Shown here: positions 10,788 through 12,066 of the stretch, piece by piece | How the letters are laid out: every line of letters begins with the position of its first letter | Position numbering within the stretch: the first letter of the stretch is position 1 | DNA from: Micromonospora coriariae | GTDB lineage: Bacteria; Actinomycetota; Actinomycetes; Mycobacteriales; Micromonosporaceae | NCBI RefSeq assembly: GCF_900091455.1 | Contig: NZ_LT607412.1 | Location: 3,906,001 to 3,970,000 of the forward strand | Length of the DNA stretch: 64,000 nt | Direction: 5' to 3' | Program-made: the position numbers and the translations under genes | Notes under the pieces: model-generated | Told to the model about the DNA's origin: nothing | The model's input: only the letters and a program-made list of their open reading frames with translations | Databases searched by the model: none

Positions 10788-11882
10788 TCAGGCGGGGGTC
10801 GGCAGGGTGGCCCGGCGGGCCCGGACGGCGGTGGCCAGGTGGTCGAGCACCTCGGCGGTGTCGTCCCAGCCGAGGCAGGCGTCGGTGACCGACTGGCCGT
10901 ACACCAGCTCCCGGGTGGGGTCGAGGTCCTGCCGGCCGGGCAGCAGGAACGACTCCAGCATCACGCCGGTGATCCCACGTTGGCCGCCGGCCAGCTGGGC
11001 GGCCACGTCCGCGGCGACCAGCGGCTGGTTGCGGTGGTCCTTGCCGCTGTTGGCGTGGCTGGCGTCGATCACCAGACGCTCCGGCAGCCCGGCCGCGCGG
11101 AGCAGGTCCAGGGCGCCGGCCACCGACTCCGCGTCGTAGTTGGGCCGGCCGCCCCCGCCGCGCAGCACCAGGTGCCCGTCGGTGTTGCCCCGGGTGTGCA
11201 TGATCGCCGGGGTGCCGGAGAAGTCGATGCCGGGGAAGACGTGCGGTACCCCGGCCGCGCGGATCGCGTCCACGGCGGTGCCGATGCTGCCGTCCGGGCG
11301 GTTCTTCATGCCGATCGGCATGGACAGGCCGGAGGCGAGCTGCCGGTGCACCTGGCTCTCCACAGTGCGGGCACCGATCGCGCCCCAGGCCACCGTGTCG
11401 GCGATGTACTGCGGCGTGATCGGGTCGAGGAACTCGCAGCCCACCGGCAGTCCGAGGCGTAGTACGTCGAGCAGCAGCGCCCGGGCCCGTCGCAGGCCGG
11501 TGTTGACGTCCCCGCTGCCGTCCAGCCCCGGGTCGTTGATCAGCCCCTTCCAGCCCACCGTGGAGCGCGGCTTCTCGAAGTAGACCCGCATGACGATCAG
11601 CAGGTCGTCGGCGAGCCGGTCGGCGGCGGTACGCAGCCGCTGCGCGTAGTCGAGGGCGGCGGCCGGGTCGTGCACGGAGCACGGGCCGACCACCACCAGC
11701 AGGCGGTCGTCCTCGCGGTCCAGCACCCGACCCACCGCGCGTCGGCCGGTCAGCACGGCCGAGGCGAGCGGGGCGTCCAGAGGCAACTCGTGGTGCAGCA
11801 GCGCGGGCGTGGTCAGCGGCACGACACGGTCGATCCGCTGATCGCTGACCCGATCGGTCTCCGGGGTCGTCACGGTGGGCAT
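10788..11882 (-). CDS. aroG: 3-deoxy-7-phosphoheptulonate synthase (class I DAHP synthase)
   Basis: 364 residues, the length of the class I AroG/AroF/AroH type. It condenses PEP and erythrose-4-P in the first step of aromatic amino acid synthesis. Hallmarks are VVVGPCSVHDPAAALDYA, VMRVYFEKPRSTVGWKGLINDP, GCEFLDPITPQYIAD, MPIGMKNRPDG, VIDASHANSGKDH and GVMLESFL. ATG 11882 abuts a GGAAGG, whereas in-frame GTG 11873 would give a 9-nt spacing, so the true start may be three codons in. The long 5' leader encodes an aromatic-rich peptide and a terminator, which suggests attenuation. Confidence 0.95.
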   Translation of the reverse strand: MPTVTTPETDRVSDQRIDRVVPLTTPALLHHELPLDAPLASAVLTGRRAVGRVLDREDDRLLVVVGPCSVHDPAAALDYAQRLRTAADRLADDLLIVMRVYFEKPRSTVGWKGLINDPGLDGSGDVNTGLRRARALLLDVLRLGLPVGCEFLDPITPQYIADTVAWGAIGARTVESQVHRQLASGLSMPIGMKNRPDGSIGTAVDAIRAAGVPHVFPGIDFSGTPAIMHTRGNTDGHLVLRGGGGRPNYDAESVAGALDLLRAAGLPERLVIDASHANSGKDHRNQPLVAADVAAQLAGGQRGITGVMLESFLLPGRQDLDPTRELVYGQSVTDACLGWDDTAEVLDHLATAVRARRATLPTPA

Positions 11883-11918
11883 CCTTCCGCCGACCGTGCC
11901 CGGGGCCGGTGCCCGGGA

Positions 11919-12027
11919 CGAGCCGGCTGCTCGTACGCAAAAGGGCAGGAACGACAGCTCCTGCCCAGCCGGCTCGGTCCGTGGTGACGTCAGATCATGG
12001 TGAAGTCACCGGCGTGCGAGCCGGCTG
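11919..12027 (-). promoter_or_regulatory. Alternating pairing segments of the aroG leader
   Basis: CAGCCGGCTCG occurs at 12027-12017 and again at 11929-11919. Its exact complement CGAGCCGGCTG lies between them at 11976-11966, immediately before the terminator stem. The middle copy can pair with either outer copy. A further GGTGAC (12010-12005)/GTCACC (11989-11984) pair overlaps the leader-peptide end. This is the layout of a ribosome-controlled switch, although I could not work out by hand which fold is the antiterminator. Confidence 0.55.
11939..11966 (-). terminator. Attenuator terminator in the aroG leader
   Basis: On the minus strand GGGCAGGA (11966-11959), an 8-nt loop and TCCTGCCC (11950-11943) form a perfect 8-bp stem followed directly by TTTT. 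It lies 28 nt after the stop of the putative leader peptide and 56 nt before aroG. A genuine U-run is unusual for this genome and supports a working intrinsic terminator. Confidence 0.75.
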
Positions 12028-12054
12028 CCTAAACCATCGATACGAACGCGTCAC
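11995..12054 (-). CDS. Aromatic leader peptide upstream of aroG
   Basis: A 19-codon frame from GTG 12054 to TGA 11995 reads MTRSYRWFRQPARTPVTSP. Tyr, Trp and Phe codons lie within four consecutive codons (12042-12031), which is hard to explain by chance directly ahead of DAHP synthase, whose products are exactly these three amino acids. There is no Shine-Dalgarno. TAGGCT lies six nucleotides upstream, so the leader would be translated from a leaderless 5' end. It is inferred to be the sensing element of an attenuator. Confidence 0.7.
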   Translation of the reverse strand: MTRSYRWFRQPARTPVTSP

Positions 12055-12060
12055 GAGGTC

Positions 12061-12066
12061 AGCCTA
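12061..12066 (-). promoter_or_regulatory. -10 element of the aroG leader transcript
   Basis: Minus-strand TAGGCT at 12066-12061 is six nucleotides from the leader GTG, so transcription would begin at or next to that codon. A possible -35, TTGTGC, lies 20 nt further upstream, a longer gap than usual. Confidence 0.55.

Follow-up and report, generated by a model that had tools for sequence, protein, structure and literature searches.

The trp, pheA and pheST systems of Escherichia coli are transcription attenuators, and translational attenuators of the ermC type are built of four segments that pair either as 1:2 and 3:4 or as 2:3. The AroR leader of Corynebacterium glutamicum aroF was reportedly described by Neshat et al. 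in 2014. The element considered here recalls AroR: it lies in Micromonospora coriariae directly before aroG, the gene for type I 3-deoxy-D-arabino-heptulosonate 7-phosphate (DAHP) synthase, within a stretch of 64,000 nucleotides (contig NZ_LT607412.1, positions 3,906,001 to 3,970,000) that is referred to as the window. The element and aroG are both on the minus strand, and all coordinates are positions within the window. Leader-peptide attenuation before aroG is well supported by sequence comparison, and the favoured reading, held at a probability of roughly 0.8, is that of an AroR-like attenuator, leaderless and ribosome-mediated.

According to the available portions of PMC11802643 and PMC4046766, both of which describe the aroF leader of C. 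glutamicum, AroR carries a Phe-Tyr-Phe motif: limitation of Phe raises transcription and the availability of Tyr has no effect (PMC11802643). The Micromonospora element shares with AroR an aromatic leader peptide before DAHP synthase, and its layout recurs in two genomes of one genus, probably Corynebacterium, whose leaders MSVQRFYFGGAP and MRMWRFYFSKAP contain Phe-Tyr-Phe and are accompanied by complementary segments S1 and S2 and by a hairpin with TTTT. One of these genomes (G877) is matched by the covariance model R1 introduced below (E 1.8e-4) and shows the layout, and in the other (G747) the layout was recognized by eye only; a third genome of the genus has no type I DAHP synthase. AroR and the aroG leader nevertheless differ: the Micromonospora peptide reads Tyr-x-Trp-Phe and thus includes a Trp codon, a further segment, S4, follows the terminator, and the stem sequences are others. 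This comparison draws on the published description and on G877 and G747, not on the C. glutamicum aroF leader itself.

Control codons, a pause-like hairpin and a terminator are also shared with the E. coli trp, pheA and pheST attenuators, which the same available text names (PMC11802643); the aroG leader departs from them in its mixed aromatic codons and in that no antiterminator was found. The consulted part of PMC8079986 presents eight leaders of Streptomyces lividans, including the leaderless trpE, trpS, leuS, leuA and ilvB, and none there is aromatic other than for tryptophan. These leaders and those predicted in the accessible part of PMC1262725 are similar in having a leaderless short open reading frame (ORF) with end-product codons and a hairpin with or without a T run, but they serve other pathways. 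The same portion of PMC1262725 reports no conserved RNA structures before phenylalanine or tyrosine operons in Actinobacteria, and the excerpt available of PMC1173090 gives database-predicted attenuators before tyrA operons, including a DAHP synthase-tyrA operon of Vibrio. In the part of PMC2965389 that was available, nothing on aroG was found. No title or abstract describing an aroG leader in Micromonosporaceae was found, a picture that Neshat 2014 and Wolf 2017 (Actinoplanes) could change.

An earlier note, made from the letters of the window alone, had singled out a 19-codon frame with Tyr, Trp and Phe within four codons, a perfect 8-bp hairpin followed by TTTT and an 11-nt sequence present three times in alternating orientation, all directly before DAHP synthase, and every one of these features is present. 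The leader ORF, MTRSYRWFRQPARTPVTSP, runs from GTG 12054 to TGA 11997-11995 and starts 6 nt after a predicted -10 box, TAGGCT (12066-12061). Its Tyr codon TAT occupies 12042-12040, the Trp codon TGG 12036-12034 and the Phe codon TTT 12033-12031. Directly after Phe and still within the ORF lies S1 (12027-12017), the first copy of the 11-nt sequence CAGCCGGCTCG. The reverse complement of CAGCCGGCTCG follows as S2 (11976-11966), which can pair with either S1 or S4 and shares one base with an intrinsic-terminator-like hairpin, T (11966-11939), whose stem of eight perfect pairs joins 11966-11959 to 11950-11943 and is followed by TTTT at 11942-11939. Beyond this terminator, S4 (11929-11919) is the third copy of CAGCCGGCTCG. 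The downstream product is a type I DAHP synthase by TIGR00034 (468 bits) and NF009395 (491 bits). The identity of aroG as proposed earlier therefore stands, and its start is moved: judged from the sequence, it is most likely GTG 11873, nine bases after the ATG 11882 originally put forward, because the spacing from GGAAGG suits GTG and several relatives that lack an ATG there keep GTG-AC. On this start, aroG occupies 11873-10788.

Chance accounts poorly for this arrangement. Among 5000 dinucleotide-preserving shuffles of the 184-nt region, none contained an 11-mer threefold in either orientation, three contained an 8-bp hairpin with TTTT and seven contained Tyr, Trp and Phe within four codons of a short ORF; the hairpin and the aromatic frame never occurred jointly. 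The predicted fold of 12066-11860 is 4.65 SD below that of shuffles. A search for -10 box, 6 nt, GTG and TAY-NNN-TGG-TTY in this order gave a single hit in the genome of M. coriariae and hits in 3 of 21 genomes overall, with none for the reversed control; as it permits only a 6-nt gap before GTG, it serves as a specificity check alone.

Relatives were represented by 96 upstream regions, drawn from two search sets of 36 and 60 loci, and 77 of these were aligned as rows. Type I DAHP synthase itself occurs in all 121 genomes of the genus and in 219 of 250 of the family. A leader is present in 95 of the 96 regions: 94 were found by a rule demanding a TANNNT box followed by a frame with three or more aromatic codons, and the remaining one, L087, was missed by the rule, as its gene start was missed, and was seen in its sequence. 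TANNNT followed after 5-8 nt by GTG or ATG is found in 94 of the 96 regions, and T2, A3 and T7 of the box are invariant in the 77 rows. The suggestion of a leaderless start is borne out in so far as the position fits, the support for it being positional only. In 77/77 rows the Phe codon follows the start at 21, 24 or 27 nt, always a multiple of three, and behind Phe the frame drifts between species (for example RQPARTPVTSP as against RQPAGGAGDFTMI) and the tail of the peptide is not conserved. Length changes in multiples of three up to Phe, followed by drift, support a coding constraint by which the N-terminal codons would be kept as codons and the tail only as RNA.

The choice of codons is equally distinctive. 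In 92 of the 94 leaders, Tyr is encoded by TAT in 92 of 93 cases and the last Phe by TTT in 92 of 92; all Phe codons taken together comprise 97 TTT and 7 TTC. The 29 long frames of the window use TAT for 12 of 236 Tyr codons and TTT for 7 of 264 Phe codons, figures to be read with the proviso that these frames are mechanical, not curated genes, and that the 92 leaders are mutually related. As TAT and TTT dominate the leaders yet are rare in the window frames, the sensing codons appear to be rare synonyms. The rule used across families to place leader starts at times takes an earlier in-frame ATG, so that some peptides come out slightly too long; at a single locus of family f22 (L201), where the leader is visible in the sequence, the rule failed.

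Compensatory changes were assessed in 90 matched rows, 86 of them true and 4 antisense partials, with an alignment fitted to the model. Of all cells, 90.9% are paired, against 77.9% in shuffles. Two-sided changes affect 196 cells, where shuffles give 45.7 and slid versions 17-45. The S1:S2 helix is supported above all by its core of eight pairs, in which 93.4% of cells are paired and seven of the eight pairs show two-sided changes; over the full 11 pairs, 699/838 cells are paired in the 77 rows and the outer pairs often fail. When partners are swapped, with segments cut by the same model-fitted alignment, S1 and S2 of one sequence score better together than the mean of other families' partners in 70 of 74 cases. 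The terminator hairpin is likewise supported: its inner six pairs are 98.6% paired with two-sided changes in all six, its outer two 73.3% paired, and in the 77 rows 606/616 cells of the stem are paired and a T run of at least three follows in 71. A hairpin around the stop codon, P2 (GGTGAC/GTCACC, 12010-11983), has 410/461 cells paired in the 77 rows; in the larger set it is 84.6% paired, with two-sided changes in 6/6 pairs. The local hairpin P1 (CCGGC/GCCGG, 12024-12009), which competes with S1:S2, is paired in 384/385 cells of the 77 rows, and its near invariance means that this pairing says little. Aromatic codons and terminator are thus both conserved in relatives, and compensatory changes are present; the earlier note had named a lack of conservation of these codons or of the terminator in close relatives as grounds for giving up attenuation, and that outcome did not occur.

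The repeats also admit a reading at the level of DNA, in which the AGCCGGCT palindromes are operators of a repressor and the leader frame is incidental. Although AGCCGGCT is a perfect palindrome and its three copies are spaced 46 and 52 nt, this is very improbable: in other families S1 and S2 lose the palindrome and stay complementary (for instance GGCTCCGGGTGG with CCACCCGGAGCC), which is explained by RNA pairing and not by an operator, and length changes of the leader preserve the frame. Operator palindromes were rejected on these grounds.

The position of the Phe codon points to the amino acid that is sensed. The first T of this codon precedes the S1 core by 8 nt in 77 of 86 sequences from several families, a spacing that the comparison supports as a conserved feature. 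Counted from the first base of the A-site codon, a ribosome footprint extends 12 nt downstream, so that a ribosome stalled at Phe would cover the start of S1. Stalls were modelled by folding the 77 aligned sequences up to the T run. In the absence of a ribosome, S1:S2 forms with a mean probability of 0.84. A ribosome stalled at Tyr gives 0.94, one at Trp 0.69 and one at Phe 0.19, and a ribosome placed on the stop codon gives 0.92. Stalling at Tyr brings none of the 77 sequences under 0.5, stalling at Trp brings one and stalling at Phe all 77. The folding therefore predicts that Phe acts first, Trp in part and Tyr not at all, which would make TTT the main control codon.

The idea of the earlier note that one peptide senses all three aromatic amino acids is not supported in this form. 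An equal sensor of Tyr, Trp and Phe would account for the three codons within four and for the retention of TGG in 73 of the 77 rows and of TAT in 66 (the other 11 have TTC or TTT at the Tyr position), but the footprint arithmetic and the modelled stalls favour Phe, TTT in 77/77, as the one codon that breaks S1:S2. Moreover, in a chorismate-mutase group of 21 leaders (20 loci of family f19 and L181, from a genome of f22, all with a chorismate mutase domain downstream), Phe is present in 21/21, Tyr in 15/21 and Trp in none. Trp is also missing in 13 of 18 f22 leaders before DAHP synthase, which shows that the link between Trp codon and downstream gene is not strict. AroR, too, is said to ignore Tyr in the accessible text of PMC11802643, and equal sensing is accordingly judged improbable.

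Under the favoured reading, the transcript would begin, as the position of the box suggests, at the leader itself, and a ribosome would start at once on its first codon. When charged tRNA-Phe is short, the ribosome would stall at the invariant TTT, and less so at the Trp codon; its leading edge would then cover the start of S1, the long S1:S2 helix abutting the terminator could not form and aroG would be read through. When aromatic amino acids suffice, the ribosome would leave, S1:S2 would form beside the hairpin and transcription would end at TTTT. The step from S1:S2 to termination is postulated, the overlap between helix and hairpin being one base only. In read-through RNA S4 would capture S2, and this may prevent re-pairing or act on the translation of aroG.

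The distribution of the element was surveyed with R1, a covariance model built from 47 rows. In the genome of M. coriariae R1 matches once, at 134 bits; a second copy was rejected, the next match reaching 19.3 bits (E 0.47) and no leader being found there. Within the class, 52 of 394 genomes and 24 of 137 genera are matched at E <= 0.01 under strict filters, and in the related family f2 113 of 201 genomes and 22 of 31 genera at E <= 0.1, these being model matches most of whose leaders were not inspected. Among 80 named DAHP synthase loci, R1 matches 19 of the 22 titled Actinobacteria (weakest E 0.019): they comprise Micromonospora, Paractinoplanes, Catellatospora, Kribbella, Streptomyces, Tsukamurella, Rhodococcus, Nocardia, Mycobacterium, Williamsia, Antrihabitans, Amycolatopsis and a Streptosporangiaceae bin. 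Two weak matches in this set lie outside Actinobacteria, one titled Hyphomicrobiales (E 0.011) and one titled Bordetella (E 0.29). At 47 distant loci the downstream gene is a type I DAHP synthase in 26 cases (the entire f22 set of 19 plus 7 others) and carries a chorismate mutase domain in 21; none of the 47 lacks both. The mutase is either on its own or preceded by a domain whose match to DAHP synthase I-beta falls far short of the curated cut-offs; two f19 loci, L176 and L193, have it fused behind such a sub-cut-off domain, perhaps decayed or regulatory. As to known RNA families, the search for an Rfam element (T-box or other) returned only a chance mir-39 match on the plus strand, at 23.8 bits and below the cut-off of 62.

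Several observations weigh against the favoured reading. No alternative partner was found for either arm of the terminator, by eye or in partition functions computed for the free and the stalled state, and the probability of the terminator hairpin in the 77 sequences is 0.96 free and 0.97 stalled, values that describe secondary structure and not kinetics. In 8 of the 77 sequences S1:S2 is already below 0.5 without a ribosome. The T run is mostly one or two long as counted in family f22, and relatives in Rhodococcus, Nocardia and Amycolatopsis have no separate terminator hairpin: there S2 and S4 form one hairpin, mostly with no T run directly after it. One synthase of the family set (L154) has no leader, its upstream stretch reading by eye as another coding frame. 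Finally, 342 of the 394 class genomes have no R1 match at E <= 0.01 under strict filters, and R1 misses three of the 22 actinobacterial DAHP synthase loci (L007, L035 and L062: two Nocardiopsis and one Streptosporangiales bin).

The terminator is where a classical attenuator of the trp type must also be considered, with segments pairing 1:2, 2:3 and 3:4 and an antiterminator hidden, for example, in pairing that is non-nested or assisted by a protein and is missed by nearest-neighbour folding. The classical layout is matched by the leader, the pause-like hairpin, the terminator and the place of the stop codon, and antiterminator attenuators are predicted before the trp operons of Corynebacterium and Streptomyces in the part of PMC1262725 at hand. 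With no partner for the terminator arms and a hairpin that persists at 0.96-0.97 in the ensembles, this explanation appears unlikely, and because an antiterminator was looked for and not found, the element is not filed as a classical trp-type attenuator, though alike in outline. Ribosome-mediated attenuation as first proposed is thus upheld in part: judged from sequence, a leader of translated type, its codons, the terminator and the compensatory changes are conserved, and what is missing is the antiterminator and any response of the hairpin to the stall.

S4 emerges only after the terminator and so cannot decide termination there. In modelled read-through RNA a stall raises S2:S4 from 0.50 to 0.91 (higher in 72/77 sequences) and lowers the pairing of S4 with GGTCGGC from 0.13 to 0.00 (lower in 70/77). 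Between S4 and the gene lie the hairpin P5 (CCCGGG/CCCGGG, 11917-11899; 346/409 cells paired) and then GGTCGGC followed by the Shine-Dalgarno sequence GGAAGG (11895-11883); S4:GGTCGGC is paired in 465/507 cells and S2:S4 in 688/843. Set against the 50 nt after the terminator, S2 prefers its own partner in 46 of 74 cases, as compared with 34 of 74 for a control region farther down. By group, own partner and control give 22 and 18 of 25 in Micromonosporaceae, 14 and 0 of 19 in f22, 4 and 13 of 21 in the mutase group, 3 and 2 of 5 in f2, and 3 and 1 of 4 in others. S4 is therefore best supported in f22, moderately in Micromonosporaceae and not in the mutase group. The Rhodococcus/Nocardia-type loci in which S2 and S4 form a single hairpin are L008, L015, L021, L024, L218 and L219; L218 has a T-rich stretch soon after the hairpin and L024 has TTTT some 10 nt beyond it.

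These pairings recall the ermC-type attenuator, with S1, S2, S4 and GGTCGGC as segments 1 to 4. Without a stall, 1:2 and 3:4 would form and the translation of aroG would be held back; upon a stall, 2:3 would free the start. All three helices can form, the modelled stall shifts S2:S4 and S4:GGTCGGC in the expected directions, and the plain S2:S4 hairpin of the Rhodococcus/Nocardia-type relatives, mostly with no T run directly after it, would suit such a mechanism. The aroG leader differs from ermC, however, in sensing amino acids, in the terminator-like hairpin placed between segments 2 and 3 and in a Shine-Dalgarno sequence that is not clearly masked. The stall does not raise the predicted accessibility of this site, which is 0.66 free and 0.63 stalled (more open in 13/77 sequences and less in 22/77, the site being chosen by a crude purine rule). 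In addition, S2:S4 is unspecific in the mutase group and in f2, the control comes close in Micromonosporaceae, and AroR is reported to act on transcription in the available text of PMC11802643. Translational control of this kind is consequently considered a doubtful explanation, and attenuation of transcription by the stalled ribosome is preferred.

A more far-reaching version of attenuation is put forward tentatively, and as a whole it is rather less likely to be true than false. It envisages a class-wide actinobacterial family of leaders without an antiterminator switch, in which S1:S2, blocked by the Phe-stalled ribosome at the pairs next to the terminator, would act as a booster stacked on the terminator. 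S4 would trap S2 after escape in some lineages, and the module would serve DAHP synthase and chorismate mutase alike, with no Trp codons where the enzyme serves the Phe/Tyr branch alone.

Some further observations concern other loci. The genome of M. coriariae also has a type II DAHP synthase (PF01474; G000:C1:4464040-4465323). No short ORF with more than two aromatic residues in 12 was found within 450 nt before the family match, a stretch that may be partly coding, as it was counted from this match rather than from the true start; perhaps, then, leader control extends to just one of the genome's two entry enzymes. In one genome of the genus (G014:C36:13227-14305) aroG is matched as two pieces that overlap and lie in different frames, which may reflect a frameshift or an error of assembly. 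Outside Actinobacteria, DAHP synthase loci titled Burkholderia, Caballeronia, Paraburkholderia, Bordetella and Xanthomonas show unrelated aromatic-rich leader-like ORFs such as MSAKFYFYFFWHLKPLADREG and MNANRSFYFWYYGFPMPLAEEGVRSP; these loci are L019, L022, L026, L030, L054, L057, L060, L063, L064, L066, L074 and L076. Runs of 12 residues with six or more aromatic ones are found in 25 of the 79 DAHP synthase upstream regions considered (all phyla, without L017) and in 3 of 553 control stretches, and the leaders of the listed loci look like an independent use of the same idea. A metagenome-assembled genome titled Anaerolineae (L032) has an aromatic-rich ORF, MSRYFSFFSWYGYFAAGQVERAVVRPRDV, whose start lies 194 nt ahead of a match to type I DAHP synthase.

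If the favoured reading is true, the one attenuator reported from Corynebacterium becomes a family that extends across many actinobacterial genera. It would offer a simple rule for the sensed amino acid, a Phe codon 8 nt before S1, and a tractable case of attenuation without an evident antiterminator. In actinobacteria the entry step of the shikimate pathway feeds many antibiotics, and the switch before aroG would for this reason be a practical target for engineering.

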